A stretch of DNA of 64,000 nt from contig NC_022247.1 in assembly GCF_000463015.1 (NCBI RefSeq), positions 2,108,001-2,172,000 of the forward strand, read 5' to 3'. The DNA comes from Variovorax paradoxus B4. GTDB taxonomy: Bacteria; Pseudomonadota; Gammaproteobacteria; Burkholderiales; Burkholderiaceae_C. This document shows, piece after piece, positions 26,610 to 49,169 of this stretch; within the stretch, counting starts at the first letter, position 1; each line of letters starts with the position of its first letter. Below the pieces are notes generated by a model. That model was given only the letters and a program-made list of their open reading frames with translations. It made no database searches and was not told the origin of the DNA. The position numbers and the translations under genes were made by a program.

Positions 26610-27848
26610 TCAAAAGACCATGCGTACGCCGACGTCGTACCCCAGCGCGCTGCGCGGCTGCATGCCGCCGGTGGTTGCATAGGTCGGCTGCGGAAAGATC
26701 GCCGGGTTGCTCAACACCAGCGGCGTCACGCCCATCACGGACGGGTTGTTGCGGCCATTGCCGATGTGGATGCGCGCCACCGAGGCATACAGCGCCGTGC
26801 GCTTCGACAGGTTATGCACATAGCCCAGCGCGAGCTTGTTCACCGACGAATTGCCGTCCGGCAGTCCGAGGCCGTTCAGGAAGCGCACGCGGGCGTAGGA
26901 GGCGCGCAGCATGCCGGCGCCCAGCGGCACGTTGATGCCGGCCATGAGGCCGTCGTAGCGGTCGCTCAGGCGCATGGCCCCGGCGGGAAGGCCGCTGTTG
27001 CTGCTGCGCACGTCGCGCACGCGCGACCATTCACCGAACAGCTTCACCGGCCCGAAATCGTACGAAGCGCCGAGGTTCAGGCTCTTGATTTTCTCGCCTT
27101 GGGAGGCGGTGCTGGCCAGGGTGCTCTCCCCGTAGCCCAGGGCCACGTCGGCCGGGCCGCTGGCCCAGCCGATGCGACCGCCCACGTAGCGGCCGCGCTG
27201 CGAGGGGCTGTCCGGCAGGTTGTCGATCTTCACGTTCTCGTGCAGCGCGTACTGCACCTGGCCGTAGAAGCCGCCCAGGTTCGGCGGCAGGAAATAGCTG
27301 AGGGCGTTGCTGGTGCGCAGGTAGCTGTCGGTGCCCGCCGAGAGGCCTCCGTTGAGCAGACCGCCGGTCGCCAGCGCGCGCGAAGCCGCGATGTTGCTGT
27401 TGACGACGGCAATCAGGTTCGTGCCCACGCCGTTGACGCTGAACGGGTCGAACACCGCGTCGTTCCAGAACGAGGCGGTGTAGTCGCGGCCCAGGCGCAG
27501 TTCGCCGAAAGGCCCGCTCAGGCTGAGCGTGGAACGGCGTCCGAAGTTCGCGATGCCGCCGCCTGTGTCGTTGTTCAGCGGCGCCTCGAGCCAGAAGCTT
27601 GCGGCCAGCCCGCCGCCGAGGTCTTCGGTGCCGCGAAAGCCCAGGCGGCTCGAGGCATTGCCCGACGGGGACAGCACGGTCTGGCTCTGCCGCAGCTCGG
27701 CCGGGCGCAGCGGGTTCCACGAACTGCTCGTGGTGCGGTAGTGGCTGACGCCTGCATCGACCACGCCGAACAGCGTGAGCGACGACTGGGCGAGGCAATG
27801 GCCGGCGACCAGGGCGGCCGCGGCGGCGGCGAGGGTCTTCTTCTTCAT
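26610..27848 (-). CDS. Gram-negative porin (porin_4 type), copy 1
   Basis: A 412-residue outer-membrane porin with a signal peptide ([20 protein letters not shown]). The mature start QSSLTLFGVVDAGV is that of beta-proteobacterial trimeric porins, and the C-terminal Phe (DVGVRMVF) is the barrel-assembly signal. Long blocks such as SSRLGFRGTEDLGGGLAASF and SFWNDAVFDP are shared with the porin at 38194, in opposite orientation. ATG27848 overlaps the stop of the CoA ligase gene (ATGA), so it is the last gene of a catabolic operon and probably admits its substrate. Confidence 0.93.
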   Translation of the reverse strand: MKKKTLAAAAAALVAGHCLAQSSLTLFGVVDAGVSHYRTTSSSWNPLRPAELRQSQTVLSPSGNASSRLGFRGTEDLGGGLAASFWLEAPLNNDTGGGIANFGRRSTLSLSGPFGELRLGRDYTASFWNDAVFDPFSVNGVGTNLIAVVNSNIAASRALATGGLLNGGLSAGTDSYLRTSNALSYFLPPNLGGFYGQVQYALHENVKIDNLPDSPSQRGRYVGGRIGWASGPADVALGYGESTLASTASQGEKIKSLNLGASYDFGPVKLFGEWSRVRDVRSSNSGLPAGAMRLSDRYDGLMAGINVPLGAGMLRASYARVRFLNGLGLPDGNSSVNKLALGYVHNLSKRTALYASVARIHIGNGRNNPSVMGVTPLVLSNPAIFPQPTYATTGGMQPRSALGYDVGVRMVF

Positions 27849-29500
27849 GGTCTTGTCTCCTGCTTGTTGTGTTTGTCTTCGTCCAGCAGATGGTCGCGCC
27901 AGGCGTCTCTCAGCAGGTTCTTCTGCACCTTGCCGGTCGCGCCGAGCGGGATGCTGTCGACGAACACCACGTCGTCCGGCGTCCACCACTTGGCGATCTT
28001 GCCGTCGTAGAAGCGCAGCAGTTCGTCGCGCGCGAGCGCCTGCCCGGGCTTGCGCACCACCACCAGCAGCGGCCGCTCGTCCCACTTCGGATGGCGCGCC
28101 GCGATGCAGGCGGCCATCGCCACGGCGGGGTGGGCCATCGCGATGTTCTCCAAGTCGATCGAGCCGATCCACTCGCCGCCGGACTTGATCACGTCCTTGC
28201 TGCGGTCGGTGATCTGCATGAAGCCGTCGGCGTCGATGGTGGACACGTCGCCGGTGGGAAACCAGCCGTTCACCAGCGGACCGTCGCCTTCGCCCTTGAA
28301 GTAGCGCGAGAGGATCCACGGGCCGCGCACCATCAGTTCGCCCGCGCTGCGGCCGTCGTGGGGCAGGGCGGTGCCGTCGGCGTCGACGATCTTCATCTCG
28401 ACGCCGTACACCGCGCGGCCCTGCTTCGACTGGATGGCCAGGCGCTGTTCGGCGTCGAGCGCATGGTGCGCGGGCTTGAGCGCGCCGGCGGTGCCCAGCG
28501 GGCTCATCTCGGTCATGCCCCAGGCATGCAGCACCTGCACGCCGTGGCGCTCCTGGAAGGCGCGCATCATCGCGGGCGGGCAGGCCGAGCCGCCGACGAT
28601 GGTGCGGCGCATGGTCGAGAACTTCAGGCCGTGGCTTTCCACGTGCGTCAGCAGGCCCTGCCACACGGTGGGCACGCCGGCGGAGACGGTCACGCCCTCG
28701 GCTTCGAACAGGTCGTGCAGCGACTTGCCGTCGAGCGACGGGCCGGGGAACACCAGCTTGGCGCCCACCATGCATGCGATGTACGGCAGGCCCCAGGCGT
28801 TCACATGGAACATCGGCACCACGGGCAGGATGGTGTCGGCGCTGGCGCAGTTGAGCGCGTCGGGCAGGGCCGCCGCGTAGCTGTGCAGCACCGTGGAGCG
28901 GTGGCTGTACAGCACGCCCTTGGGGTTGCCGGTGGTGCCCGAGGTGTAGCACAGCGACGAGGCGGTGCGTTCGTCGAAATCCGGCCACTCGAAGCGGGGC
29001 GATTGCGCGTCGAGCAGGTCCTCGTAGCACAGCAGGTTCGGGATCGCCGAAGACGCGGGCATGTGCGCCCGGTCGGACATCGCGACGAAGGCCTTCACGG
29101 TGGCCACGTGCGGGGCGATGGCCTCGACCAGCGGCAGGAAGCTCAGGTCGAAGCACAGCACGCGGTCTTCCGCGTGATCGACGATCCAGCGCACCTGGTC
29201 CGGGTGCAGGCGCGGGTTCAGCGTGTGCAGCACGGCACCGGAGCCCGAGACCGCGTAGTACAGCTCCATGTGGCGGTGGCCGTTCCAGGCCAGCGTGGCC
29301 ACGCGGTCGCCGTGCGCGACGCCCAGTGCCGCCAGCGCATTGGCCAGCTGGCGCGCGCGCTGGCCCAGCGCGCGGTAGGTGGTGCGGTGCAGGTCGCCTT
29401 CGACGCGGCGCGAGACGATCTCCTGTTCGCCGTGCTGGGTTTCCGCGTGCGTCAGCAGGGAGGAGATCAGCAGCGGCCGATCCATCATCAATCCGTTCAT
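27845..29500 (-). CDS. Acyl-CoA synthetase (AMP-forming)
   Basis: A 551-residue member of the ANL superfamily. The ATP/AMP-binding P-loop [11 protein letters not shown] lies near residue 187, the A5-type motif [10 protein letters not shown] near 333, the hinge region [15 protein letters not shown] near 425 and the catalytic Lys segment [11 protein letters not shown] near the C-terminus. It resembles medium/long-chain and 3-methylmercaptopropionyl (DmdB-like) CoA ligases; the true acid is unknown. Within the operon it would activate a carboxylic acid released by, or entering, the pathway. Its stop overlaps the porin start. Confidence 0.9.
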
Positions 29501-29539
29501 GGGAGGGGGCTCTTCGTTCGCTTGTTCGTTGTTCTTCGT

Positions 29540-30487
29540 TCAGGGCACGAGCACGGTGGCGCCGGTGGTCTTGCGGCCTTCGAGCGCGCGGTGCGCCTCG
29601 ACCGCGTCGGCGAGCGCAAAGCTCTGCTGCGGTTCGCTCACGATGCGCCCGGCCAGCACGTGGCCGAACAGCTCCTCGGCCATGGCCAGCATGTGCGAAC
29701 GCGGCTGGATGTAATGCACCATCGCCGGGCGCGTGAGCCAGAGCGAGCCCTTGGCCGCCAGCAGCTTGGTGTCGATCACCACCGAGCCCGAAGAAGTGCC
29801 GTTGCTCACCAGCGAGCCGCGCGGCTGCAGGCAGTCGAGCGACGCTTCCAATGTGTCCTTGCCCACCGAGTCGTAGACCACCGGCACGCCCTTGCCCTCG
29901 GTGATCTCGCGCACGCGCTGGGCGATGTTCTCGCGCGAGGTCACGATCGTGTGCGCGCAGCCGTTGGCCTTGGCGATGGCCGCCTTCTCGTCGGTGCTGA
30001 CCGTGCCGATCATCGTCACGCCCAGGGCACGGGCCCACTGGCAGGCGATCAGGCCCACGCCGCCGGCGGCCGCGTGATAAAGAATGGTCTCGCCGCCCTG
30101 GAGCGGATAGACCTGGCGGAACAGGTACTGCGCCGTCATGCCCTTCATCATGAGCGTGGCGGCGGTGCGGTCGGAGATGCCCTCGGGCAGCGGAATCAGC
30201 ACATCGGCCGGCATCACGCGCACCTGCGAGTAGGCACCTTGCGGCCCGATGAGATAGCCCACGCGGTCGCCCACGCGGATGTCGGTCACGTCCGGGCCCA
30301 CGGCCTCCACCACGCCCACGGCGTCGGAGCCGAGGCCGTTGGGCAGGGCGAGCGGATAGCGCCCGGTGCGAAAGTAGATGTCGATGAAGTTGACGGCAAT
30401 GAGGCTGTGGCGCACGCGCGCCTGGCCGGGACCGGGTTCGCCGACCTCGACGTGTTCGAGCTTCAGGACGTCGGCGCCGCCGGTCTC
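29540..30487. repeat. 948-bp direct repeat, copy A (partner 39458-40405)
   Basis: Reading both stretches base by base I saw no difference from the stop codon of qor (29540) to position 30487, where copy A has G and copy B has A. Synonymous sites are also identical. Outside the block, including the first codons of both genes, the sequences diverge at once. This indicates a very recent copy or gene conversion limited to the qor coding region. Confidence 0.85.
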
Positions 30488-30511
30488 GTGGAAGCGGATG
30501 GCTTTGACCAT
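29540..30511 (-). CDS. Zeta-crystallin-like quinone/enone oxidoreductase, copy 1
   Basis: A 323-residue zinc-free medium-chain dehydrogenase/reductase. The N-terminal catalytic domain contains VNFIDIYFRTGRYPL and GSDAVGVVEAVGPDV. The Rossmann motif AAAGGVG (about residues 147-153) marks NADPH binding. Family members reduce quinones or activated alkenes. Apart from its first ~10 codons it is identical to the copy at 39458-40429. It lies between the RBBP9-like hydrolase and the CoA ligase in the same leftward operon. ATG30511 is chosen by alignment with the second copy. Confidence 0.93.
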   Translation of the reverse strand: MVKAIRFHETGGADVLKLEHVEVGEPGPGQARVRHSLIAVNFIDIYFRTGRYPLALPNGLGSDAVGVVEAVGPDVTDIRVGDRVGYLIGPQGAYSQVRVMPADVLIPLPEGISDRTAATLMMKGMTAQYLFRQVYPLQGGETILYHAAAGGVGLIACQWARALGVTMIGTVSTDEKAAIAKANGCAHTIVTSRENIAQRVREITEGKGVPVVYDSVGKDTLEASLDCLQPRGSLVSNGTSSGSVVIDTKLLAAKGSLWLTRPAMVHYIQPRSHMLAMAEELFGHVLAGRIVSEPQQSFALADAVEAHRALEGRKTTGATVLVP

Positions 30512-30551: not shown

Positions 30552-31109
30552 TCAGCCCGCCGCGAGTTCGTCGAGGAATGCCTGCGCGCCCGGCCACTCG
30601 CCGTAGCCCGAAGCGGGGTTGAGGTGGCCGACCGCGCCAAGGTCGACCAGCCGGCTGCCCCAGCCCTGCGCCATCTGCGCCACGCGCTCGAAGGACGCCA
30701 GCGGGTCGTCGCGGCTGGCCACCACGATGCTCGGGAACGGCAGCGGCCCGGTCGGCACCGGCAGCCAGCCGCCTGCGCGCAAGGCCTCGACGCTCGGGTA
30801 GCCCTCGGGCATCGGCCGTTCGAAATCGGGCGGCGTGGCCAGCAGCGCGCCGCGCACCGGCCGGCGCGTGCGCTGCGCCCAGTGCGCCAGCATCACCACG
30901 CCGCCGCTGTGCGCCACGACGATCAGCGGGCCGTCGACCGCCTGCGCCTCGCGCTCGATGGCTTCGACGCGCGCGGTGCAGTCGAGGTCTTCGCGGCCCA
31001 TCGGCGGCACCGCGCGCACGCGTGGCAGGCGCGCCGCAAGCAGGGTTTGCCAGTGGCTGGCGACGGCGTCGCGCAGGCCGGGAACGATCAGGACGGTGGG
31101 AGCGGTCAT
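30552..31109 (-). CDS. RBBP9/YdeN-like serine hydrolase
   Basis: A 185-residue compact alpha/beta hydrolase. The nucleophile elbow VVAHSGGVVML carries the Ser (about residue 68). An Asp segment (VVASRDDPLASFERV) and the late His (VGHLNPASGYGEW) complete the triad in the RBBP9/YdeN pattern. The substrate is unknown. It lies 24 bases after the Bug gene and 40 before qor copy 1, so it is an operon member that could hydrolyse an ester or lactone intermediate. The second module lacks this gene. Confidence 0.88.
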   Translation of the reverse strand: MTAPTVLIVPGLRDAVASHWQTLLAARLPRVRAVPPMGREDLDCTARVEAIEREAQAVDGPLIVVAHSGGVVMLAHWAQRTRRPVRGALLATPPDFERPMPEGYPSVEALRAGGWLPVPTGPLPFPSIVVASRDDPLASFERVAQMAQGWGSRLVDLGAVGHLNPASGYGEWPGAQAFLDELAAG

Positions 31110-31133: not shown

Positions 31134-32105
31134 TCAGTTCAGCTGGATGCCGAAGCTCTTCACGATCTCGGCGTTGCGGCCGTGCTCTTCGCGCAGTTCG
31201 GTCGCGGCCTGCTCCAGCGAGCGCGGACCGACCGGCTCGAAGCCGGCGCTCACGAGGCGCCCGCGGAAGGCCGGGGTGGCGGCGACTTTCTCGAGCACCG
31301 CATGGATCTTTTCGATCAGCGTGGCGGGCATCTGCGACGAGGCGATCACGCCGGTCCAGTTGCTGAAGTTCAGGTCGGGGTAGCCGATCTCCGCCATCGT
31401 CGGCACGTTCGGAAAGTCCGGCAGGCGCGTCTTGTAGGCCACGCCCAGCAGGCGCACCCGTCCGCCGGCGACCAGGTTCTTCGAGGTGACCGTGCCGTCG
31501 AACATGAGCGGAATCTGCCCGCCCATGACCTGCGCCAGCGCGGGCGCCGAGCCGGCGAAGGGCACGTGCTGCATGTCGAGCTGCGCCTTCTGGTTCAGGA
31601 TCGCGCCTGCGTAGTGCGAGGCGGTGCCCGCGCTGTACGAGGCGTACGACACCTGCCCCGGATGCGCCTTCACGTAGGCGATGGCCTCCTTGGCGTCCTT
31701 GGCCGGAAACTGCGGCGCCGCGATGAACAGCAGCGCCGAGCGCGCCATGATGCCGACCGGCTTCACGTCCTTCAGCGGGTCGAAACCGGTCTTCATCACG
31801 TGGGGAATCTCGGACAGCACGTTGCTGGCCGTCACCATCAGCGTCTGCCCGTCGGCGGGCTGCGAGAGCATGTACTTGACGGCGATCGCACCGCCCGCGC
31901 CGGGCTTGTTCTCGACCACGACGGGCTGCTTGATCTCCTGCGCCAACTGGTCGCCGATGATGCGCGCGATCACGTCGATGGTGCCGCCCGGCGGCGCGGG
32001 CACGATCAGGTGAACCGGCTTGTCGATGAAGGCGAAGCCGGCTGGCGCGTACAGCGCGGCGGCAACGGCCATCGTCAGAGAAGCGAGGCGCGGAAGAAGT
32101 GTCAT
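31134..32105 (-). CDS. Bug family (TctC-like) solute-binding protein, module 1
   Basis: A 323-residue periplasmic protein with a signal peptide (cleavage likely at GFAFIDKP). The mature start is followed by the Bug signature HLIVPAPPGGTIDVIAR, and a later block ENKPGAGGAIAVKYM binds the ligand carboxylate in this family. Bug proteins deliver organic acids to TctAB permeases or signal to regulators. No tctA or tctB is in the window, so it would depend on a permease elsewhere. It lies between the BKACE and hydrolase genes. Confidence 0.93.
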   Translation of the reverse strand: MTLLPRLASLTMAVAAALYAPAGFAFIDKPVHLIVPAPPGGTIDVIARIIGDQLAQEIKQPVVVENKPGAGGAIAVKYMLSQPADGQTLMVTASNVLSEIPHVMKTGFDPLKDVKPVGIMARSALLFIAAPQFPAKDAKEAIAYVKAHPGQVSYASYSAGTASHYAGAILNQKAQLDMQHVPFAGSAPALAQVMGGQIPLMFDGTVTSKNLVAGGRVRLLGVAYKTRLPDFPNVPTMAEIGYPDLNFSNWTGVIASSQMPATLIEKIHAVLEKVAATPAFRGRLVSAGFEPVGPRSLEQAATELREEHGRNAEIVKSFGIQLN

Positions 32106-32136: not shown

Positions 32137-33195
32137 TCAGGCCGCCTTGCGCAGGAAGCCCTGCTGGCCGCCGTTGCGGTTGGGCGCGAAGCCGTTGGCC
32201 AGCAGCGATTCTTCTGCCGTGTCGTAGAAGACGCCGATCCTGGAGATCTCGCGCGCCTGCTTGGCCGTGGCGATCGGGCGACCGAACTGCCGCGAGATCT
32301 GCACCAGCTGCTCGACCTGCGCCACCGTGCCTATCTTCCCGGAGCGCGACTGGTTCCAGAGGTTGTCCTCGATGCCGCAGCGCACGTGCAGGCCCATGGC
32401 GATGCCCATCATGTTCACGGGCAGCACGTTGCGCATGGAGCTTTCCACCGTGAGCACCGCGCCGTCGGGCACCGCACGCACGAAGTTGGCCAGGCTGTAG
32501 ATGTTGGGCACGTCCATGCCGCCGCCGATGGCCACCCAGTTCATCACCAGCGGGCCCTTGTAGACGCCGCGGCGCATCAGCCGTTCGACCGAGTCGAAGC
32601 TGTTGATGTTGTAGCACTGGAAGGCGCTCTGGATGCCGGCCTTGCTGAGGCGGCGGATGTGCTCCTCGGCCCAGCCCGGCTGCGCCGGCACCGTCATTTC
32701 CTTGTAGGCGCGGTAGACCTCGGGGTCTTCCATCGAGGTGCCCTTGACGTCGGCGTCTTCCCAGTGCTCGACCACGTTCATCTGCGAGGTGTTGATGGTC
32801 ACCGTCACCTGGTCGGGCGTGGGCTCCAGCTCGGCCAGCATGTGGCGCGTGTCGTCCGACAGCCACTTGGCAGCGGCGCCTTCGCTCTCGGGCGCGAAGC
32901 TGATCGAGCCGCCCACCTGAATGATCATTTCGGGCACGCGTGCGCGCACGCCGGCGATCAGCTCGTTGAACTTGGACAGCCGCTTGCTGCCCTTGCCGTC
33001 GAGTTCGCGTACATGCAGGTGCAGCACGGTGGCGCCGGCGTTGTAGCAATCGACCGCCTTCTGGATCTGCTGCTCCATCGTGACCGGGATGTCCTCGGGG
33101 AAGTCGGCGGGCACCCACGACGGCGCGTAGGGCGCGGCGGTGATGATCAGCGGCTGCTGGTTTTCGGGGAACAGATGGCCGTCGAGAAAGTTCAT
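32137..33195 (-). CDS. BKACE (DUF849) beta-keto acid cleavage enzyme, copy 1
   Basis: A 352-residue TIM-barrel protein. The metal ligands HLHVRE (His59 and His61) and the block VGGSISFAPE match the 3-keto-5-aminohexanoate cleavage enzyme family. BKACEs use acetyl-CoA to split a beta-keto acid into acetoacetate and a new acyl-CoA. This copy is about 80-90% like those at 42520 and 45975 by eye. All three share the MNFLDGHL start and the NGFAPNRNG tail and are longer than the classical Kce (about 275 residues). It follows the TauD gene by 57 bases. Confidence 0.92.
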   Translation of the reverse strand: MNFLDGHLFPENQQPLIITAAPYAPSWVPADFPEDIPVTMEQQIQKAVDCYNAGATVLHLHVRELDGKGSKRLSKFNELIAGVRARVPEMIIQVGGSISFAPESEGAAAKWLSDDTRHMLAELEPTPDQVTVTINTSQMNVVEHWEDADVKGTSMEDPEVYRAYKEMTVPAQPGWAEEHIRRLSKAGIQSAFQCYNINSFDSVERLMRRGVYKGPLVMNWVAIGGGMDVPNIYSLANFVRAVPDGAVLTVESSMRNVLPVNMMGIAMGLHVRCGIEDNLWNQSRSGKIGTVAQVEQLVQISRQFGRPIATAKQAREISRIGVFYDTAEESLLANGFAPNRNGGQQGFLRKAA

Positions 33196-33252: not shown

Positions 33253-34161
33253 TCAGAAGACCGCTTCGCCGACGATGCCGGCGCGTTCCATCTTTCGATG
33301 GCAGGGCGGGTAGTCCATGACCGCGTAGTGCTGGGTCGAACGGTTGTCCCACATCGTCACGTCGCCCGGCTGCCAGCGCCAGCGCACCTGGTACTCGGGG
33401 ATCTGGGCCTGGCTCACGAGGTACGCGAGCAGCATGGCGGCGCCGGGCTGGTAGTCCTGCCCGTAGCGCACGTTGGCCGGCGTGTGGAAGTTGGTGAAGT
33501 GGGTCGTGAAGCCGTTGACGAACAGGATCTTCTCGCCCGTGTCGGGGTGCGTGCGCACCACGGGGTGCTCGGCGTCGGGGAACTGGGCCTTCAGCGCCAG
33601 GCGCTTCTCGATCGGCATCGCGGCGCCGAAGGTGGCCTCGATGCTGTGGCGTGCGCGCAGCCCGGCGATCTGCTGGCGGATGTGCGCGGGCAGATTCTCG
33701 AAGGCCAGCGCCATGTTGGCCCACATCGTGTCGCCGCCCACCGGCGGGCATTCGACGCAGCGCAGCACGCAGCCGAAGGGCGGCTTCTCGCGCCAGGTGG
33801 CGTCGGTGTGCCAGCTGTTCTCGTAGCGGTCGACCGGGGTGTCGGGGTTCTTGTAGATGCGCACCAGCCCGGGGTGCTCGGGGTCGCTGCCGACCACCGG
33901 GTGGTCTTCGAGCTCGCCGAAGTGGCGGGCGAAGGCGACATGCTCGGCGCGCGTGAGCTCCTGCTGGCGGAAGAACAGCACCTTGTGCTTGATGAGGAGC
34001 GCGCGGATCTCGGCCGCCAGGCCGGCGTCGCGCGAGGCCTCGGCCAGCGACACCTGGCGCAGTTCGGCGCCGATCGCGCAGGTCACGGGGTGGACCTGGA
34101 TGCCGCGCGTCAGCACGGCGGGTGCCCCATTCGAGGGGGCTGGCTGGTTCATGGAACCCAT
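33253..34161 (-). CDS. TauD/TfdA-family 2-oxoglutarate dioxygenase, copy 1
   Basis: A 302-residue Fe(II)/2-oxoglutarate enzyme. His118 and Asp120 (SWHTDATW) and His278 (STQHYAV) form the iron triad. Arg289 and Arg293 follow at +11 and +15, as the 2-oxoglutarate-binding arginines do in TauD. Substrates in the family include sulfonates, phenoxyacids and gamma-butyrobetaine-like acids; none can be assigned here. ATG34161 is preferred because GGAGACAAAACC precedes it; an ATG at 34152 is also possible. It heads the leftward operon. Confidence 0.92.
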   Translation of the reverse strand: MGSMNQPAPSNGAPAVLTRGIQVHPVTCAIGAELRQVSLAEASRDAGLAAEIRALLIKHKVLFFRQQELTRAEHVAFARHFGELEDHPVVGSDPEHPGLVRIYKNPDTPVDRYENSWHTDATWREKPPFGCVLRCVECPPVGGDTMWANMALAFENLPAHIRQQIAGLRARHSIEATFGAAMPIEKRLALKAQFPDAEHPVVRTHPDTGEKILFVNGFTTHFTNFHTPANVRYGQDYQPGAAMLLAYLVSQAQIPEYQVRWRWQPGDVTMWDNRSTQHYAVMDYPPCHRKMERAGIVGEAVF

Positions 34162-38193: not shown

Positions 38194-39429
38194 ATGCTCA
38201 GACCTTTCATTCTTGTTGCGGGATCTTTTTGCGCCGCCGGCGCGAGTGCCCAATCCTCACTGACCGTGTTCGGTGTCGTCGACGCGGGGATCAGTCGCTA
38301 TTCGACGAAGAGTTCGACCTACGGCTCCGCCGCGCTCTTCGGGCCGCGCACGATGCGCCAGAGCCAGACGGTGTTGTCGCCCTCGGGCTTGAGTTCGAGC
38401 CGCCTGGGCTTCCGGGGCACCGAAGACCTCGGCGGCGGCCTGGCTGCGAGCTTCTGGCTCGAGGCGCCGTTGAGCAACGACACGGGCGGCGGCATCTCCA
38501 ACTTCGGACGCCGCTCCACGCTCAGCCTGAGCGGGCCCTTCGGCGAACTGCGCCTGGGCCGCGACTACACCGCCTCGTTCTGGAACGACGCGGTGTTCGA
38601 TCCGATGACCGTCAACGGCGTGGGCACGAACCTGATCGCCGTCGTCAACAGCAACATCGCGGCCTCGCGTGCACTGGCGACCGGCGGCCTGCTCAACGGA
38701 GGCCTCTCGGCGGGCACCGACAGCTACCTGCGCACCAGCAACGCCGTCAGCTACTTCCTGCCGCCGAATCTGGGCGGCTTCTACGGCCAGGTGCAGTACG
38801 CGCTGCCGGAGAACATCAAGGTCGAAGGCGCGTCCGCCCCGGACGGCACGGGCCGCCGCGGGCGCTATGCGGGCGCACGCGCCGGCTGGTCGAACGGGGC
38901 CGTTGACGTGGCGCTGGCCTACGGCGAGAGCACGGTGGCCGACACCTTGCTCAACAAGGAGCGCATCAAGACCGTCAATCTCGGCGCGTCCTACGACTTC
39001 GGGTGGGCCAAGCTGTTCGGCGAACTGTCGCGCGTGAAGGACGTGAAGGAACGGCCGCTGACCGCCGCGGTCAGCGGCCGGTACGACGGCGCCTTGCTCG
39101 GCCTCACGGTGCCGGTCGGCCCGGGGCTGATTCGCGTCTCCTACGCCACGGTGAAGTTCGACAATGGATCGACGGTGCCCGATGCGGACGCCCGCACCAA
39201 CAAGCTCGCAGTCGGCTATGTGCATCACCTGTCGAAGCGGACGGCGCTGTACGCGTCGGTGGCCCGCATCCGCATCCGGGACGGCCACAACAACCCGACC
39301 GTGATGGGCGTGACGCCGCTGGTGCTGAGCCTGCCTGCCATCTTTCCGCAGCCGGGCTTCACCACCTCGGGCGGCTTCCAGCCCCGCGGCGCGATGGGCT
39401 ACGACGTCGGCATCCGGCACACGTTCTGA
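38194..39429 (+). CDS. Gram-negative porin (porin_4 type), copy 2
   Basis: A 411-residue trimeric-type porin with a signal peptide (MLRPFILVAGSFCAAGASA), mature start QSSLTVFGVVDAGI and terminal Phe (DVGIRHTF). It closely resembles porin copy 1, above all from SSRLGFRGTEDLGGG to the end of SYFLPPNLGGFYGQVQYAL, while the C-terminal third differs more. ATG38194 follows GGAGACACCAGGC. It converges on qor copy 2 with a 28-base gap. It probably serves uptake for module 2. Confidence 0.93.
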   Translation: MLRPFILVAGSFCAAGASAQSSLTVFGVVDAGISRYSTKSSTYGSAALFGPRTMRQSQTVLSPSGLSSSRLGFRGTEDLGGGLAASFWLEAPLSNDTGGGISNFGRRSTLSLSGPFGELRLGRDYTASFWNDAVFDPMTVNGVGTNLIAVVNSNIAASRALATGGLLNGGLSAGTDSYLRTSNAVSYFLPPNLGGFYGQVQYALPENIKVEGASAPDGTGRRGRYAGARAGWSNGAVDVALAYGESTVADTLLNKERIKTVNLGASYDFGWAKLFGELSRVKDVKERPLTAAVSGRYDGALLGLTVPVGPGLIRVSYATVKFDNGSTVPDADARTNKLAVGYVHHLSKRTALYASVARIRIRDGHNNPTVMGVTPLVLSLPAIFPQPGFTTSGGFQPRGAMGYDVGIRHTF

Positions 39430-39457: not shown

Positions 39458-40405
39458 TCAGGGCACGAGCACGGTGGCGCCGGTGGTCTTGCGGCCTTCG
39501 AGCGCGCGGTGCGCCTCGACCGCGTCGGCGAGCGCAAAGCTCTGCTGCGGTTCGCTCACGATGCGCCCGGCCAGCACGTGGCCGAACAGCTCCTCGGCCA
39601 TGGCCAGCATGTGCGAACGCGGCTGGATGTAATGCACCATCGCCGGGCGCGTGAGCCAGAGCGAGCCCTTGGCCGCCAGCAGCTTGGTGTCGATCACCAC
39701 CGAGCCCGAAGAAGTGCCGTTGCTCACCAGCGAGCCGCGCGGCTGCAGGCAGTCGAGCGACGCTTCCAATGTGTCCTTGCCCACCGAGTCGTAGACCACC
39801 GGCACGCCCTTGCCCTCGGTGATCTCGCGCACGCGCTGGGCGATGTTCTCGCGCGAGGTCACGATCGTGTGCGCGCAGCCGTTGGCCTTGGCGATGGCCG
39901 CCTTCTCGTCGGTGCTGACCGTGCCGATCATCGTCACGCCCAGGGCACGGGCCCACTGGCAGGCGATCAGGCCCACGCCGCCGGCGGCCGCGTGATAAAG
40001 AATGGTCTCGCCGCCCTGGAGCGGATAGACCTGGCGGAACAGGTACTGCGCCGTCATGCCCTTCATCATGAGCGTGGCGGCGGTGCGGTCGGAGATGCCC
40101 TCGGGCAGCGGAATCAGCACATCGGCCGGCATCACGCGCACCTGCGAGTAGGCACCTTGCGGCCCGATGAGATAGCCCACGCGGTCGCCCACGCGGATGT
40201 CGGTCACGTCCGGGCCCACGGCCTCCACCACGCCCACGGCGTCGGAGCCGAGGCCGTTGGGCAGGGCGAGCGGATAGCGCCCGGTGCGAAAGTAGATGTC
40301 GATGAAGTTGACGGCAATGAGGCTGTGGCGCACGCGCGCCTGGCCGGGACCGGGTTCGCCGACCTCGACGTGTTCGAGCTTCAGGACGTCGGCGCCGCCG
40401 GTCTC
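39458..40405. repeat. 948-bp direct repeat, copy B (partner 29540-30487)
   Basis: This block is the second copy of the qor coding region, in the same orientation as copy A and 9918 bases away. Identity ends at 40405, inside codon 7-8 of the gene, and at the stop codon on the other side. It gives a substrate for deletion or duplication of the intervening 10 kb by recombination. Confidence 0.85.
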
Positions 40406-40429
40406 ATAGAAGCGGATGGCCTGGTTCAT
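39458..40429 (-). CDS. Zeta-crystallin-like quinone/enone oxidoreductase, copy 2
   Basis: A 323-residue protein identical to copy 1 except in the first residues (MNQAIRFYETGG against MVKAIRFHETGG). The AAAGGVG NADPH motif and MDR fold are the same. Unlike copy 1 it stands alone, antiparallel to the genes around it and divergent from Bug module 2 (197 bases between starts). This orientation suggests that it was inserted or rearranged on its own. Confidence 0.92.
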   Translation of the reverse strand: MNQAIRFYETGGADVLKLEHVEVGEPGPGQARVRHSLIAVNFIDIYFRTGRYPLALPNGLGSDAVGVVEAVGPDVTDIRVGDRVGYLIGPQGAYSQVRVMPADVLIPLPEGISDRTAATLMMKGMTAQYLFRQVYPLQGGETILYHAAAGGVGLIACQWARALGVTMIGTVSTDEKAAIAKANGCAHTIVTSRENIAQRVREITEGKGVPVVYDSVGKDTLEASLDCLQPRGSLVSNGTSSGSVVIDTKLLAAKGSLWLTRPAMVHYIQPRSHMLAMAEELFGHVLAGRIVSEPQQSFALADAVEAHRALEGRKTTGATVLVP

Positions 40430-40626: not shown

Positions 40627-41595
40627 ATGAAACTGCTGCACTTTGCACGCGCCGCGGCGGCGCTGGTCGGATGCTCGATGGCCCTCGGGGCCTGGGCGCT
40701 GGGCGACAAGCCCGTGAAGCTCATCGTTCCCGCGCCGCCGGGCGGCACGATGGACATCGTCGCCCGCGTCGTCGGGCAACAGATGGCACTGGACATCGGC
40801 CGGCCCGTGATCATCGAGAACCGCCCCGGCGCCGGCGGCTCGATCGGCCTGCAGGCCATGCTGCAGGCGGCGCCCGACGGCAACACCATCGTGCTGGCTG
40901 CGAGCAACGTGCTGGCGGAGACGCCGCAGGTGGTGAAGATGCCGTTCGACCCGCTCAAGGACGTGGTGCCCATCGCGTCGGTGGCGCGGTCGGGCGTGGT
41001 GCTCGTGTCGGCGGCCAGCTACCCGGCCAAGGACTTCCAGGGCCTGATCGCCGAGCTGAAGGCGCGCAAGGGCAAGGCCAGCTTCGCCAGCTACAGCCCC
41101 GGCACCGTCTCGCAATACGCCGGGCTGATCCTCAACGACGGCGCCGGGCTGGACATGCAGCACGTTGGCTACCCCGGCTCACCGCCCGCGCTGCAGGACC
41201 TGCTCGGCGGCCAGGTCGACATCATGTTCGACGGCATGCTGACCTCGACGCCGCTCATCAAGGCCGGCAAGCTGCGCCCCTATGCCTTCACCGGCAAGAC
41301 CCGCTCGCGCTTCCTGTCCGACGTGCCGACCACGACCGAACTCGGCTACCCGGACCTCCAGTTCCGTGGCTGGGTCGGCTTCATCGGCTCCAGCAAGCTG
41401 CCGGCCGACGTGCTGGCCAAGCTGCATGCCGTGATCGAGAAGGCCGGCCAGGCCCCCGCCGTGCAGCAGAAGCTGATCGACGTGGGGCTGGAGCCCGAAC
41501 TCAGCGTCGACACGCCCGCGCTCATCGCCGAGACCCGGGCGCTGTCGGAGCGCAACGCCGCCATCGTCAAGAAGTACCGCATCCAGGCGAACTGA
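40627..41595 (+). CDS. Bug family (TctC-like) solute-binding protein, module 2
   Basis: A 322-residue periplasmic protein with a signal peptide (MKLLHFARAAAALVGCS, cleavage near AWALG). The mature start KLIVPAPPGGTMDIVAR and the ENRPGAGGSIGLQAM block are Bug hallmarks. It is clearly related to the protein at 31134 (shared FDPLKDV, FASYS and DMQHV segments). It heads a + strand unit with TauD copy 2 and BKACE copy 2. No membrane permease accompanies it. Confidence 0.93.
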   Translation: MKLLHFARAAAALVGCSMALGAWALGDKPVKLIVPAPPGGTMDIVARVVGQQMALDIGRPVIIENRPGAGGSIGLQAMLQAAPDGNTIVLAASNVLAETPQVVKMPFDPLKDVVPIASVARSGVVLVSAASYPAKDFQGLIAELKARKGKASFASYSPGTVSQYAGLILNDGAGLDMQHVGYPGSPPALQDLLGGQVDIMFDGMLTSTPLIKAGKLRPYAFTGKTRSRFLSDVPTTTELGYPDLQFRGWVGFIGSSKLPADVLAKLHAVIEKAGQAPAVQQKLIDVGLEPELSVDTPALIAETRALSERNAAIVKKYRIQAN

Positions 41596-41626: not shown

Positions 41627-42469
41627 ATGAAGATCAGACCCGTCACGCCCTCCCTCGGGGCGGAAGTCACCGACGTTCACCTGGGCGAGGCTTCGCGCGA
41701 CCCCGAGCGCTTTGCGCCCATCCGCGCTGCGCTGCTCAAGCACAAGGTGCTGTTCTTTCGCGGCCAGGACATCACGCGCGCCGAGCACGTGGCCTTTGCC
41801 AAGCGCTTCGGCCCGCTGGAAGACCATCCGGTGCTCGGCTCCGACCCCGATCACCCGGGGCTGGTGCTCATCCATCGCAGCGACAACAAGCACAGCTACG
41901 AGAACACCTACCACTGCGACGGCCTGTGGCGCCCGACCCCGCCGCTGGGCTCGGTGCTGCGCTGCATCGAATGCCCCGAGATCGGCGGCGACACCATCTG
42001 GGTGAACATGGTGCAGGCGCACGACGAGCTGCCCGAAGAGATCAAGCAGAAGATCGCCAAGCTGCGCGCCAAGGCCAGCATCGAGCATTCGTTCGGCGCC
42101 GTCATGCCGATGGAAGCCCGCCTCAAGCTGGGCCAGGACAACCCGCCCGTGGAGCACCCCGTGGTGCGCACGCACCCCGAGACCGGCGAGAAGGTGCTCT
42201 ATGTGGGCAGCTTCACCACGCACTTCGTGAATTACAGCACCCCCGAGAACGTGCGGCACGGCATCGACAAGACGCCGGGCGCGGCGCTTCTTTTGAACTA
42301 CCTGCTCAGCCGGGCCACCATTCCCGAGTACCAGGTGCGCTGGTCGTGGCAGCCGGGTGACGTGGTCGTCTGGGACAACCGCAGCACGCAGCACTACGCG
42401 CTGAACGACTACTGGCCCGCGCCGCGAAAGATGGAACGCGCCGGCATCGTGGGCGACGTGCCGTACTGA
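41627..42469 (+). CDS. TauD/TfdA-family 2-oxoglutarate dioxygenase, copy 2
   Basis: A 280-residue paralog of the enzyme at 33253. The iron ligands are His96 and Asp98 (TYHCDGLW) and His256 (STQHYAL), with Arg267 and Arg271 for 2-oxoglutarate. It lacks the ~20-residue N-terminal extension of copy 1. The residue after the first His is Cys instead of Thr, and the region after it differs (RPTPPLGS), so the substrate may not be the same. It lies 31 bases after the Bug gene and 50 before BKACE copy 2. Confidence 0.92.
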   Translation: MKIRPVTPSLGAEVTDVHLGEASRDPERFAPIRAALLKHKVLFFRGQDITRAEHVAFAKRFGPLEDHPVLGSDPDHPGLVLIHRSDNKHSYENTYHCDGLWRPTPPLGSVLRCIECPEIGGDTIWVNMVQAHDELPEEIKQKIAKLRAKASIEHSFGAVMPMEARLKLGQDNPPVEHPVVRTHPETGEKVLYVGSFTTHFVNYSTPENVRHGIDKTPGAALLLNYLLSRATIPEYQVRWSWQPGDVVVWDNRSTQHYALNDYWPAPRKMERAGIVGDVPY

Positions 42470-42519: not shown

Positions 42520-43578
42520 ATGAACTTCCTCGACGGCCACCTCTTTCCCGAAAACCAGCAGCCGCTGATCATCACCGCTGCCCCCTATGCACCGGGCTGG
42601 CTTCCCTCCGACTTCCCGGGCGAGATCCCGGTCACGATGGAGGAGCAGATCCAGAAGGCGGTCGATTGCTACAACGCCGGCGCCACCGTGCTGCACCTGC
42701 ACGTACGCGAACTCGACGGCAAGGGCAGCAAGCGGCTGTCCAAGTTCAACGAGCTGATCGCCGGCGTGCGCGCACGCGTGCCCGAAATGATCATCCAGGT
42801 GGGCGGCTCGATCAGCTTCGCACCGGAGAGCGAAGGCGCCGCCGCCAAGTGGCTGAGCGACGACACGCGCCACATGCTGGCCGAACTGGAGCCGACGCCC
42901 GACCAGGTGACGGTGACGGTCAACACCTCGCAGATGAACGTCACGGAGCATGCCGAACTGGCGGACTTCAAGGGCACCTCGCGCGAAATCCCGGCCATCT
43001 TCGAGGCCTACAAGGAAATGACGGTGCCGGCGCAGCCCGGCTGGGTCGAGGAGCACATCCGCCGTCTCACCAAGGCCGGCATCCAGAGCGCCTTCCAGTG
43101 CTACAACATCAACAGCTTCGAGTCGGTCGAGCGGCTCATGCGCCGCGGCGTCTACAAGGGCCCGCTGGTGATGAACTGGGTGGCGATCAGCGGCGGCATG
43201 GACGCGCCGAACATCTACAACCTCGCCAACTTCGTGCGTGCGGTGCCCGACGGCGCGGTGCTTACCGTGGAAAGCTCGGTGCGCAACGTGCTGCCTGTGA
43301 ACATGATGGGCATCGCCATGGGCCTGCACGTGCGCTGCGGCACCGAGGACGTGCTGTGGAACCAGACGCGCTCGGCCAAGATCGGCACCGTGGCGCAGAT
43401 CGGGCAGCTGGTGGAAATCTCGCGCCAGTTCGGCCGCCCGATCGCCACGGCGCAGCAGGCGCGCGAGATCTCGAAGATCGGCGTGTTCTACGAGACGGCC
43501 GAAGAATCGCTGGCGGCCAACGGCTTCGCGCCGAATCGCAACGGGGCCAACCAGGGCTTCCTGCGCAAGGCGGCCTGA
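42520..43578 (+). CDS. BKACE (DUF849) beta-keto acid cleavage enzyme, copy 2
   Basis: A 352-residue enzyme with the HLHVRE metal site (His59 and His61) and the same start (MNFLDGHLFPENQQP) as copy 1. Differences from copy 1 cluster around residues 140-165 (EHAELADFKGTSREIPAIFE). It ends the Bug-TauD-BKACE unit. Its reaction should convert a beta-keto acid plus acetyl-CoA to acetoacetate and an acyl-CoA; the acid is unknown. Confidence 0.92.
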   Translation: MNFLDGHLFPENQQPLIITAAPYAPGWLPSDFPGEIPVTMEEQIQKAVDCYNAGATVLHLHVRELDGKGSKRLSKFNELIAGVRARVPEMIIQVGGSISFAPESEGAAAKWLSDDTRHMLAELEPTPDQVTVTVNTSQMNVTEHAELADFKGTSREIPAIFEAYKEMTVPAQPGWVEEHIRRLTKAGIQSAFQCYNINSFESVERLMRRGVYKGPLVMNWVAISGGMDAPNIYNLANFVRAVPDGAVLTVESSVRNVLPVNMMGIAMGLHVRCGTEDVLWNQTRSAKIGTVAQIGQLVEISRQFGRPIATAQQAREISKIGVFYETAEESLAANGFAPNRNGANQGFLRKAA

Positions 43579-43669
43579 GAGAGCGCATCGCGATGACGAG
43601 GCGTTTCACGCACGCGTTCTGGCGCCTGCTGGAGGACATGTCGCATGCCCTGCGCTTCGAAGACCTGGC

Positions 43670-44710
43670 TCAGAACGCGCGCACCGCGCCCTGAGCCACC
43701 GCGCCGGCCGTCTGCTTGCTCCACTGCGAGGCGCTGCAGCCGAAGTGATTGCGGAACCAGTGGCTGAAGCTGCTGGGCCCCGAGAAGCCCAGCAGTTCGG
43801 CCACCTCGCTCAGCGGCAGGTCGCTGTCGCGCAGGTGGCGCTTGACGAGGTCGGAGCGCACGTGGTCGAGCAGGCTGCTGAAGGTGAAGCCTTCGGCCTC
43901 GAGCCGGCGGTGCAGCGTGCGGCGGTCCACGCGCAGGTGCCGCGCCACCTCCTGCGCCGTGCAGCCGCCGCCGGGCATCAGCGCCAGGATGAGTTCGCGG
44001 CAGGCTTCGCGCGTGCTCTCGCCGCGGTCCTTCAGTGCCGCATCCAGGTACTCGCGCGCGAAACGCGCCGCGCCCTGGTCGCCCGATTCGCGCGGCTTGC
44101 GCAGGTCGGCCGCCAGGCAGACCAAGCCATTGAAATCCTGGTTGAACTTGACGTGGCGCCCGAAGAAGGCCCGGTGCGCCGACACGTCCGCCGGCGGGCG
44201 GTGCGTGAAGCACACCTGGAGCGGGCGCCACTGCGGATCGATCAGCTCGCCGAGGATGCGGAACATGATGCCCACGGCCAGCTCCATCGACTGGCGCATC
44301 GGCAACCCGGGGCTGGGCAGCAGGTCTTCCTGGATGATGACCATGTCGCCCGTGTCTTCGAGGCGAAAGCTCAGCGAGGCGTTCACCAGCTTGAGGTAGC
44401 GGCCCAGCGTGTCGAGCGCATCGCGCGGCGTGGGCTCTTCCTTCAGCACGACGCTGATGGGGCCGAGCGCGGAGAGCTTGCGCTGCGCCGCGAGCCGCAG
44501 AGCGAAATCTTCGGTGCGCGTGGCGCGCGCGGTGATCTCGAGCAGTTCGCGCACCGCGTCGCCCGGGATCAGCGTCTCGGGATGTTCGAGCAGCTGGGCC
44601 TTCAGCCCCACGGTGCGCATGAAGGCATGCGGGTCCCGGCCGAGCGACTGCACCAGCTCCACGTAGCCGCTGAGGCTCGCGCTGCGCATCAGTCGACCGA
44701 GGTGTTTCAT
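43670..44710 (-). CDS. AraC-family regulator with N-terminal ligand-binding domain, copy 2
   Basis: A 346-residue AraC regulator. The N-terminal sensing domain (about 20-210) resembles that of the protein at 37032, and the C-terminal HTH pair ends in PLSEVAELLGFSGPSSFSHW. It converges on BKACE copy 2 and lies just downstream of Bug module 3 on the same strand (25-base gap), so the two are probably co-transcribed. It may regulate the divergent BKACE copy 3 or the flanking module. Confidence 0.9.
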   Translation of the reverse strand: MKHLGRLMRSASLSGYVELVQSLGRDPHAFMRTVGLKAQLLEHPETLIPGDAVRELLEITARATRTEDFALRLAAQRKLSALGPISVVLKEEPTPRDALDTLGRYLKLVNASLSFRLEDTGDMVIIQEDLLPSPGLPMRQSMELAVGIMFRILGELIDPQWRPLQVCFTHRPPADVSAHRAFFGRHVKFNQDFNGLVCLAADLRKPRESGDQGAARFAREYLDAALKDRGESTREACRELILALMPGGGCTAQEVARHLRVDRRTLHRRLEAEGFTFSSLLDHVRSDLVKRHLRDSDLPLSEVAELLGFSGPSSFSHWFRNHFGCSASQWSKQTAGAVAQGAVRAF

Positions 44711-44735
44711 GGCTGGCTTTTTTGGGGCCCCGCGC

Positions 44736-45722
44736 TCACTCGGGGCTGATCTTGAGTTGCAGTTTCTCGATGATGGCCCGATTGTGGGCGGTCGTGGCGT
44801 CCAGCGTCTGGCGCAGCTGCGGCAGCGACATGTCGCGGGGCGGATCGTAATTCTGCGCGAGCAGGGCCTCGCGGAATTTCGGCGACTGCACGGCCTTGGC
44901 CACCTCGGCGCGGATTTTCTCCTGCAGCGGCAGCGGCATGCTGCTCAGCACGAACACGCCGACGCTCGCGTCCGGCAGCACGAAGTCGGGCAGGCCCAGT
45001 TCGCCGAAGGTGGGCACGTCGGGCAGGAAGCGAGAGCGCTTGGACGACGCCACGGCCAGGGCCTTGATCTTGCCGCTGCGGATCAGCGAAGTGACGTTGC
45101 TCACGACCTCGAAGGTCAGTTGCACCTGGTCACCCATCAGGTCGACCAGCGCCGGCGCCGAGCCCTTGTACGGCACCACGAGGATGTCGTTGCCGCTTCG
45201 CTCTCTGAGCATCTCGCCCAGCAGGTTGGAGCGCGTGCCCGCGCTCAGGTTGGCCACGCTCACCGAGCGCGGATGCTGCCTGGCATGCGCCAGCAGTTCC
45301 TTGACCGTGTTCGGCGCAAAGCCGGTGTTGGCCACCAGCACATGGAACATGCCCGTCACCTCGCCGACGTAGGTGAAGGTCTTCAGCGGGTCGAAAGGCG
45401 TCTTCACGGTGAGCGGAATGTCGGACAGCACGCTCGACGGTCCCACCATCAGCGTGTACCCATCGGCCGGCGCGGCCATCAGCGCGCGCTCGGCGATGAC
45501 GGCGGAGCCGCCCGGCTTGTTCTCCACCAGCAGGGTCTGGCCGAGGTTGACGCGCAGTTGCTCGGCGAGCAGCCGCGCCGACGCGTCGGAGATGCCGCCG
45601 GGCGGCGCGGGAACGATCAGCCGGATGGGCTTGTCGGGCCAGGGCTGGGCCGCGGCGGGGGCCACGGCGCAGCACAAGGCGGCCAGGGAGATCAGGGGGG
45701 GCCGCAGCAGATGCAGAAACAT
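44736..45722 (-). CDS. Bug family (TctC-like) solute-binding protein, module 3
   Basis: A 328-residue periplasmic protein with a signal peptide (cleavage near APAAAQPWPDKP). It has the RLIVPAPPGGISDASAR signature and the ENKPGGSAVIAERAL block. It is more distant from the module 1 and 2 proteins than those are from each other. It is divergent from BKACE copy 3 (about 250 bases between starts), which suggests a shared promoter region and substrate. Confidence 0.92.
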   Translation of the reverse strand: MFLHLLRPPLISLAALCCAVAPAAAQPWPDKPIRLIVPAPPGGISDASARLLAEQLRVNLGQTLLVENKPGGSAVIAERALMAAPADGYTLMVGPSSVLSDIPLTVKTPFDPLKTFTYVGEVTGMFHVLVANTGFAPNTVKELLAHARQHPRSVSVANLSAGTRSNLLGEMLRERSGNDILVVPYKGSAPALVDLMGDQVQLTFEVVSNVTSLIRSGKIKALAVASSKRSRFLPDVPTFGELGLPDFVLPDASVGVFVLSSMPLPLQEKIRAEVAKAVQSPKFREALLAQNYDPPRDMSLPQLRQTLDATTAHNRAIIEKLQLKISPE

Positions 45723-45974
45723 GACGGTTCATCCTCAGGTGAAAGGGGCAAGCGGAAGACGCGGGAGCATGCGAATTTTCCGGCGCCACGTCCTCCCAAT
45801 GCTTGGCGACAGGCGCCGATCACTTACCGAATCGCGACACCGGAATCGATGTCGGCGCGCGACGCGCCATTGCCCCAAAAAGACAAAACCTCGCCCCAGA
45901 TGAGCAAGAAGTTTTCCCAAGTGCACCAGACACTTTCGGCGTCAGAGACCCCTTCCCACCGGAGACACATCACC

Positions 45975-47033
45975 ATGAACTTCCTCGACGGCCACCTCTA
46001 TCCCGAGAACCAGCAACCCCTGATCATCACGGCCGCCCCCTATGCGCCGGGGTGGATTCCTGCCGACTTTCCGGAAGACATTCCGGTCACGATGGAAGAG
46101 CAGATCCAGAAGGCGGTCGACTGCTACGAAGCCGGCGCCACCGTGCTGCACCTGCATGTGCGCGAAGCCAATGGCAAGGGCAGCAAGCGCCTGTCGATGT
46201 TCAACGAACTGATCGCCGGCGTGCGCGCCCGCGTGCCGGAGATGGTCATCCAGGTGGGCGGCTCCATCAGCTTCGCGCCCGAGGATGACGGTTCCGCGGC
46301 CAAGTGGCTCAGCGACGACACGCGGCACATGCTGGCCGAGCTCACGCCCAAGCCCGACCAGGTGACCGTGACCGTCAACACCACGCAGATGAACGTGACC
46401 GAGCACGCCGGCCTGGACGACTTCAAGGGCCTGTCGCGCGGCGACCCGCGGCTGTATTCGACGTACAAGGACATGATCGTGCCCTCGAACCCCAGCTGGG
46501 TGGAGGAGCACATCCGCCGCCTGACGGCCGCAGGCATCCAGAGCGAGTTCCAGTGCTACAACATCAACAGCTTCGAAACCATCGAGCGGATGATCCGCCG
46601 CGGCGCCTACAAGGGCCCGCTGGTGATGAACTGGGTGGCGATCAGCGGCGGCATGGACCAGGCCAACATCTACAACCTGGCCAACTTCCTGCGCGCCGCA
46701 CCCGACGGCTCTGTGGTCACTGTCGAGAGCTCCGTGCTCAACGTGCTGCCCGTGAACATGATCGGCATCGCCCTGGGCCTTCATGTGCGCTGCGGCATCG
46801 AGGATGTGCTTTGGAACCAGACGCGCACGGGCAAGATGAGCTCGGTCGAACAGATCAAGCAGCTGGTGCGCATCTCGACCGAGTTCGGCCGCCCCATCGC
46901 CACCGCGCAGCAGGCGCGCGAGATCATGAAGATCGGCGTCTTCTACGAGACCGCCGAAGAGACGCTGCAGGCCAACGGCTTCGCGCCCAACCGCAACGGC
47001 GCCCAGCAGGGCTTCCTTCGCAAACCGACCTGA
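45975..47033 (+). CDS. BKACE (DUF849) beta-keto acid cleavage enzyme, copy 3
   Basis: A 352-residue member of the same subgroup (MNFLDGHLYPENQQP start, HLHVRE with His59 and His61). It differs from copies 1 and 2 in the REANGKGSKRLSMF and LDDFKGLSRGDPRLYSTYKD stretches. No TauD gene accompanies it; the Bug protein and AraC regulator on the opposite strand are its partners. ATG45975 follows GGAGACACATCACC. Confidence 0.92.
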   Translation: MNFLDGHLYPENQQPLIITAAPYAPGWIPADFPEDIPVTMEEQIQKAVDCYEAGATVLHLHVREANGKGSKRLSMFNELIAGVRARVPEMVIQVGGSISFAPEDDGSAAKWLSDDTRHMLAELTPKPDQVTVTVNTTQMNVTEHAGLDDFKGLSRGDPRLYSTYKDMIVPSNPSWVEEHIRRLTAAGIQSEFQCYNINSFETIERMIRRGAYKGPLVMNWVAISGGMDQANIYNLANFLRAAPDGSVVTVESSVLNVLPVNMIGIALGLHVRCGIEDVLWNQTRTGKMSSVEQIKQLVRISTEFGRPIATAQQAREIMKIGVFYETAEETLQANGFAPNRNGAQQGFLRKPT

Positions 47034-49161: not shown

Positions 49162-49169
49162 GGGTTGCC

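Follow-up and report, generated by a model that had tools for sequence, protein, structure and literature searches.

Paired TauD-family dioxygenase and BKACE-clade genes in two modules of Variovorax paradoxus B4, a possible variant of dissimilatory sulfonate degradation

Closest described systems

The gamma-butyrobetaine-carnitine-dehydrocarnitine route combines a TauD-superfamily hydroxylase with a BKACE (beta-keto acid cleavage enzyme), which splits a beta-keto acid with acetyl-CoA to give acetoacetate and an acyl-CoA. The taurine dioxygenase TauD hydroxylates the carbon that carries the sulfonate, and the product falls apart into a carbonyl and sulfite. Here we examined a stretch of 64,000 nucleotides (the window) from Variovorax paradoxus B4, a degrader of mercaptosuccinate whose genome comprises 7,148,516 bases in two contigs, the larger of 5,795,261 bases. 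At window positions 26610 to 47033, two paralogous modules each contain genes for a TauD-family 2-oxoglutarate dioxygenase and a 352-residue BKACE-clade enzyme, together with a porin, a Bug solute-binding protein, and a Qor reductase. We propose, with a probability of about 0.5, that the modules represent a variant form of dissimilatory sulfonate degradation that has not been described, in which the cell would import and break down an organosulfur acid that is most likely a sulfonate. Among the titles and abstract openings of the matches listed in open PubMed Central, none links TauD, BKACE, and sulfite release.

Each of the closest systems shares only part of this arrangement. The modules differ from the carnitine route in that they hold no dehydrogenase except Qor and in that their relatives carry sulfite-handling partners. 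TauD shares with the module dioxygenases its Pfam family, Fe triad, 2-oxoglutarate Arg, and equivalents of His70 and Arg270, but the module enzyme falls under the cutoff of the NCBIfam taurine dioxygenase model (241 versus 313 bits), its taurine-amine residues are changed, and its gene shares a run with those for the ligase, the hydrolase, and a Bug protein. Kce (2Y7F) and BKACE15 (8RIP) resemble the module BKACEs in fold, Zn ligands, Tyr, Arg, and Asp; however, their Glu171/Glu143 base is replaced by Gln throughout the module clade (95 of 95 sequences), where Glu251 is invariant, and the module enzymes have 352 amino acids against 269 to 311 residues in the solved chains. In the sulfo-ASDO pathway, a 2-oxoglutarate dioxygenase (SqoD, an Fe/2-oxoglutarate sulfoquinovose dioxygenase, compared here by its description) likewise cuts a C-S bond catabolically and sulfite is excreted, but the substrate is a sugar, the reductase SquF follows, and the available part of the account names no BKACE (PMC12890257). 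Triacetate acetoacetate-lyase (TAL) of phloroglucinol degradation is likewise a retro-Claisen enzyme of the BKACE family but belongs to an anaerobic pathway, as far as the available part of its description goes (PMC10470551).

Conservation of the pair and its sulfite-handling neighbors

Gene content, conservation, co-occurrence, and conserved residues were observed directly, in two main samples. One consists of 79 loci, many of them truncated by contig ends and several from a single genome, obtained from the best 80 of 312 confirmed BKACE relatives; the other holds 150 genomes of the same bacterial family as the source genome. The two are not independent, as some genomes are common to both. 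Within 10 kb of the BKACE gene, 55 of the 79 loci had a TauD with 60% identity or more, and in 37 loci it lay within 300 nucleotides (nt) on the same strand. With clade limits of E up to 3e-117 for TauD and up to 1e-90 for BKACE, the TauD clade was present in 22 of the 150 genomes and the BKACE clade in 26, and all 22 TauD genomes were BKACE positive (hypergeometric P of 1e-22, ignoring relatedness). Weaker matches that fell outside the TauD clade were one in G082 (44% identity) and those of G079 and G128 (48 to 49%), which had no BKACE match. There were 34 TauD-clade copies, 21 within 300 nt of a BKACE gene on the same strand, 30 within 15 kb, and 4 with no BKACE on the contig. In an order-wide sample of 399 genomes (G000, G070, G087, and G122 are also among the 150), the TauD clade occurred as 22 copies in 14 genomes, and 14 copies, across 11 of those genomes, had a BKACE in the flanks (up to 1.5 kb either side). 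A class-wide sample of 369 genomes yielded the BKACE clade only in the source genome.

Loci with the BKACE clade came from Variovorax, Paraburkholderia, Caballeronia, Pseudomonas, and Delftia, and the TauD-BKACE adjacency noted in a preliminary description of this DNA is not unique to one genome. The source genome itself encodes five BKACEs by PF05853, three of them between 26610 and 47033, and six TauD proteins, of which the two in the modules are the ones that adjoin a BKACE. On these grounds of co-occurrence and spacing, we rejected chance adjacency. The QOR proteins of at least 76% identity followed the same pattern, with 17 of 17 copies lying within 3 kb of a TauD-clade gene after exclusion of nine extra copies hand-picked from module contigs. 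Other partners in the 79 loci were AraC (64), Qor (47), Bug (41), MFS (29), RBBP9-like (24), and ligase (23), with YeiH (14), TAL-like BKACE (8), CMD (6), and SDR (4) being rarer. The modules belong to a conserved and probably catabolic system in which TauD and BKACE are partners. Two sets of neighbors yielded no substrate: hydrophobic-substrate cues (DUF1329, MMPL) in Pseudomonas loci and CsiD-family or CaiB neighbors in Paraburkholderia. The CsiD-family cluster lies near BKACE in L043, L049, L068, L073, and L078, the scanned L078 member being the glutarate dioxygenase GlaH, and CaiB-type CoA transferases occur in L068, L073, and L078.

A clue to the substrate comes from a YeiH-type transporter, a member of a sulfite exporter family, that neighbors some modules (PF03601, 226 bits; YeiH model, 139 bits against a cutoff of 232.6). 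YeiH matches at E up to 1e-20 occurred in 62 of the 150 genomes, and the subclade of at least 61% identity was restricted to 16, all BKACE positive. Sixteen of its 19 copies were within 10 kb of a TauD-clade gene, and the other 3 were on contigs without the TauD clade. Around YeiH relatives of 48 to 51% identity, two of seven regions held sulfonate-type operons: L086 resembles a taurine operon (taurine-binding protein TIGR01729, 382 bits, and Xsc, 1068 bits, both over cutoff), and L088 carries a GD_AH subunit with an Ldh_2 dehydrogenase whose best model is L-sulfolactate dehydrogenase (184 bits, cutoff 500). These last two proteins occur together in sulfolactate pathways. In the accessible parts of two reports, the Salmonella YeiH drives sulfite resistance (PMC12880088) and the Hyphomicrobium YeiH is termed a sulfite exporter (PMC12423496). 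It is highly improbable, in our view, that TauD and BKACE are linked by co-inheritance only and that the YeiH-like protein carries a different anion out of the cell: the function of the module YeiH is drawn from relatives of about 50% identity or less and its model score is under the cutoff, but the tight spacing of the pair speaks against this explanation.

The second clue is a SorT-like sulfite dehydrogenase gene within 4 kb of BKACE in 3 of the 79 loci (L009, L017, and L069), where about 0.04 would be expected from a rough density in the 150 genomes, in a test made after L069 had been seen. In L069, from Parahaliea, a SorT-SorU fusion scoring just under its cutoffs (500 and 98 bits against 570 and 100) forms part of a row of genes that includes the ligase, RBBP9-like, and BKACE genes. 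The SorT-like calls in L009, where BKACE, CMD, and Bug genes stand together with it, and in L017 are based on 47 to 48% identity to the L069 protein. Among the 150 genomes, 6 of 19 SorT genes were within 12 kb of a YeiH-family gene. The L069 run also contains an alkylsulfatase-like metallo-beta-lactamase (MBL) protein (L069:1084-2940; PF14863, 77 bits).

Because YeiH and SorT-like genes travel with the TauD-BKACE pair, or with BKACE alone, in relatives, TauD probably cleaves a C-S bond and leaves a carbonyl; such cleavage gives the carbonyl directly, and therefore no dehydrogenase need be missing. In the sulfonate scheme, the porins and Bug proteins would import the acid, and the TauD-clade dioxygenase would hydroxylate the sulfonate-bearing carbon with O2 and 2-oxoglutarate, the hydroxylated product collapsing to a carbonyl and sulfite. 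A sulfonate beta to the carboxylate would yield a beta-keto acid at once, with no separate dehydrogenase. The carbonyl product would then go to the Zn-dependent BKACE-clade enzyme, which would probably cleave a C-C bond in it, while the CoA ligase, hydrolase, and Qor would process the remainder. In relatives, a SorT-like sulfite dehydrogenase would oxidize the sulfite or a YeiH-type protein would export it. The parts of this scheme that we infer are that sulfite is released, where the sulfonate sits, and in what order the steps run.

The substrate of TauD might instead be a sulfur-free acid, hydroxylated as by gamma-butyrobetaine hydroxylase; Qor, an SDR, or TauD in a second turnover would then serve as the dehydrogenase that makes the beta-keto acid for BKACE to cleave. 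This route fits the adjacency and co-occurrence of TauD and BKACE. An SDR cluster in 4 of the 79 loci also suits it, as do additional SDRs in L042, L066, and L091. It leaves unexplained, however, why the YeiH subclade is confined to BKACE-positive genomes and why SorT-like genes occur in the loci, and Qor is the sole dehydrogenase in either module; we regard it as unlikely. The preliminary description had read the modules as importing an acid, oxygenating it, and cleaving a beta-keto acid, with the dehydrogenase step missing unless Qor or an outside enzyme supplied it. The partnership that it relied on is conserved, and Qor was indeed the only such enzyme in the modules, one encoded elsewhere not having been sought. 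Hydroxylation followed by oxidation now appears less likely, and the BKACE chemistry is uncertain.

Active-site residues and candidate chemistry

TauD1 and TauD2 are TauD/TfdA dioxygenases with the His-Asp-His Fe ligands and the 2-oxoglutarate Arg present in 59 of 59 clade members. As the available part of one report describes it, taurine is bound by His70 and Arg270, with the amine positioned by Asp94, Asn95, and Ser158 (PMC9304159). The equivalents of His70 and Arg270 are invariant across the 59 members, the Phe104 position is Trp in all of them, Tyr73 is retained in none, and Asn95 is retained in 3, in a stretch that aligns beside a gap. With Tyr73 and Asn95 replaced and the score under the taurine dioxygenase cutoff, taurine itself is not favored as the substrate. 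A solved TauD-clade structure, 5VN6, scores 516 bits to TauD1 and was named taurine dioxygenase by its depositors.

Other solved relatives include TauD (178 bits) and AtsK (149 bits). An AtsK-type sulfatase would convert a secondary sulfate ester to a carbonyl and sulfate, which YeiH would then export, and the presence of AtsK among the solved relatives, the alkylsulfatase-like MBL protein in the L069 cluster, and the NCBI name for YeiH (putative sulfate exporter) are in keeping with this. TauD nevertheless outscores AtsK, sulfite is the compound that SorT oxidizes, and the accessible parts of two reports link YeiH to sulfite (PMC12423496, PMC12880088), which makes a sulfatase quite improbable here.

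The BKACE-clade enzymes match the Pfam BKACE profile at 205 bits (cutoff, 24.8), and the bkace1 model (mean pLDDT, 77) has Kce 2y7f as its nearest fold (TM, 0.90 by target length). In a comparison with characterized enzymes, as the preliminary description had suggested, the Zn ligands H59, H61, and E276, the catalytic Tyr195, and Arg272 and Asp277 did not vary among the 95 clade sequences aligned, and the alignment numbering recovers E171, Y173, and R254 of BKACE15; the catalytic Glu was not kept. According to the portion of the BKACE15 report available, E171 is the proposed base; the E171L variant is inactive, and E171D keeps 5% of the activity (PMC11961710). Because this published base is Gln in all 95 sequences, the chemistry of the 352-residue enzymes is uncertain. 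Glu251, invariant in the clade, lies at the end of strand beta-7 in the model, where the alignment gives Ala in Kce, and our guess would be that the base has moved there; alternatively, the cleavage reaction may have been lost. DUF849 contains groups reported as not BKACE, according to the available part of that work (PMC4922564). A full scheme in which TauD desulfonates the beta carbon to make a beta-keto acid and the divergent BKACE, its base moved from beta-5 (Glu to Gln193) to beta-7 (Glu251), cleaves it is offered as tentative, and we would sooner doubt it than rely on it.

The TAL-like BKACEs found in the loci (n = 8) retain the catalytic Glu that the 352-residue clade lacks. They form a cluster in 8 of the 79 loci, at L024:12508-13443 and seven other places in the same gene clusters as the 352-residue BKACE, and the scanned member matches the 3,5-dioxohexanoate model NF053538 at 540 bits (cutoff, 430). 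As only this separate protein passes that model's cutoff, triacetate or phloroglucinol chemistry is not favored for the 352-residue clade. A sister BKACE of 60% identity at L091:7274-8329 lacks both the catalytic Glu and the Tyr and stands beside CMD, Bug, SDR, and YeiH genes.

A sulfonate could also be borne by the BKACE-clade substrate itself, in which case C-S cleavage would follow C-C cleavage or fall to a different enzyme, either TauD acting on a short sulfonate product or a CMD-like protein where there is no TauD. Such an order would suit the TauD-less stretches that combine BKACE with sulfite genes, namely, L009 (CMD, SorT-like), L069 (SorT-like), and L091 (CMD, YeiH), but nothing points directly to a sulfonate in the BKACE pocket and the L091 BKACE is of the sister type; we consider it quite unlikely.

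It is important to note that several observations weigh against sulfonate degradation with TauD as the desulfonating enzyme. The His70 and Arg270 equivalents also occur in PlaO1, whose score matches that of TauD; the TauD-clade residues fit an acidic substrate other than taurine but are permissive only. Gln193 occupies the catalytic Glu position in every BKACE-clade sequence. YeiH is present in just 14 of the 79 loci, and 5 of the 7 regions around YeiH relatives gave no sulfonate assignment (L089, L090, and L094 partly scanned, L085 and L087 unscanned). L091, with YeiH, CMD, SDR, and the sister BKACE, has no TauD in the stretch examined, and the three SorT loci have none of 60% identity in theirs, so another enzyme would have to release sulfite or cleave the C-S bond in these places. 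In the 150 genomes, SorT was not enriched with BKACE (4 of 26 BKACE-positive versus 15 of 124 other genomes) and by listed positions no SorT gene lay near BKACE; SorT is thus not supported there as a general partner. In the source genome, neither a PF03601 gene nor a match to SorT (E up to 1e-50) turned up, the one PF00174 protein is a family-level match only, and none of the nine TauE-family genes adjoins the modules. One TauE/SafE (sulfite exporter family) gene lies at window positions 14039 to 14737, about 12 kb from module 1.

Layout, age, and significance of the modules

Pfam and NCBIfam were run on ten module-region proteins, and the others were assigned via identity to those; the module 2 porin, qor, bug, and bkace genes were assigned from their module 1 counterparts, bkace also by PF05853 (Table 1). 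Coordinates, families, and identities bear out the two modules of the preliminary description with the genes that it named, to which a second AraC regulator, a third Bug, a third BKACE, and the opposite strand of qor2 have to be added. The genes of module 1 form one leftward series in the order tauD1-bkace1-bug1-RBBP9-like-qor1-ligase-porin1, are spaced by 57, 31, 24, 40, 39, and -4 nt, and are preceded by the MalT-type and AraC regulators. Module 2 is not one operon, because qor2 is on the minus strand and porin2, bug2, tauD2, and bkace2 are on the plus strand.

Table 1. Genes of the two modules and their surroundings, in window coordinates
Feature	Position	Strand	Basis or remark
porin1 (Porin_4)	26610..27848	-	PF13609, 203 bits; overlaps ligase by 4 nt
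acyl-CoA ligase, best model 3-(methylthio)propionyl-CoA ligase	27845..29500	-	PRK07008, 965 bits (cutoff, 822)
qor1, MDR-type NADPH:quinone/enone reductase	29540..30511	-	Pfam/NCBIfam; 966/972 nt same as qor2
RBBP9-like serine hydrolase	30552..31109	-	PF06821, 142 bits
bug1, TctC/Bug solute-binding protein	31134..32105	-	PF03401, 190 bits
bkace1, 352-residue BKACE-clade enzyme, Gln at catalytic Glu position	32137..33195	-	PF05853; residue alignment; structure model
tauD1, TauD-family 2-oxoglutarate dioxygenase	33253..34161	-	PF02668, 217 bits; residue alignment
MalT/LuxR-type regulator, start uncertain (36976-37042)	34304..37042	-	GerE and MalT models; MALT cluster in 8/79 related loci
AraC-family regulator 1, QhpR-like but under QhpR model cutoff	37032..38072	-	Pfam/NCBIfam
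porin2	38194..39429	+	73.3% protein identity with porin1
qor2, opposite strand to other module 2 genes	39458..40429	-	identity with qor1
bug2	40627..41595	+	48.6% protein identity with bug1
tauD2	41627..42469	+	PF02668, 219 bits
bkace2	42520..43578	+	89.5% protein identity with bkace1; PF05853
AraC-family regulator 2	43670..44710	-	41.1% protein identity with AraC 1
bug3	44736..45722	-	40.8% protein identity with bug1
bkace3	45975..47033	+	PF05853; 78.1% protein identity with bkace1

Nucleotide identity between the modules ranged widely (qor, 99.4%; BKACE1/2, 89.9%; porin, 79.0%; TauD, 72.5%; Bug, 68.7%). In trees of the related loci, tauD1 grouped with L006 and L034, tauD2 grouped with L025 and L032, and bkace1, bkace2, and bkace3 each clustered with copies from other genomes; the paralogy therefore predates this genome, and both modules are old and have been retained. 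In contrast, qor1 and qor2 were sisters and the only mutual nearest relatives, and all six of their differences fall inside the first 24 nt. Because of this sister position, and because their next kin are the module 2 type of L025, L032, and L047, we conclude that one qor recently replaced the other, by gene conversion or copying. We rejected a recent duplication of the whole module from the same identities and trees, qor alone being recently copied.

Adjoining the modules, window positions 47553 to 50979 hold an apparent Rieske ring-hydroxylating dioxygenase set, with the alpha subunit (49642 to 50979) identified by Pfam and the reductase, ferredoxin-size, and small-subunit-size open reading frames (ORFs) assigned by eye only; a LysR regulator lies nearby at 51143 to 51949. 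An AbiEii nucleotidyl transferase (type IV toxin-antitoxin family) and an adjoining upstream ORF occupy 20495 to 22074.

Organic sulfur in soil is mainly sulfate esters and sulfonates, as stated in the available part of one account (PMC4267179). If the sulfonate reading is true, the modules would represent a new pathway that gains carbon from C-S cleavage, with a predictable signature of TauD, BKACE, and Qor, in some cases with YeiH or SorT, and a divergent BKACE clade that has so far been named by similarity only would become directly testable.

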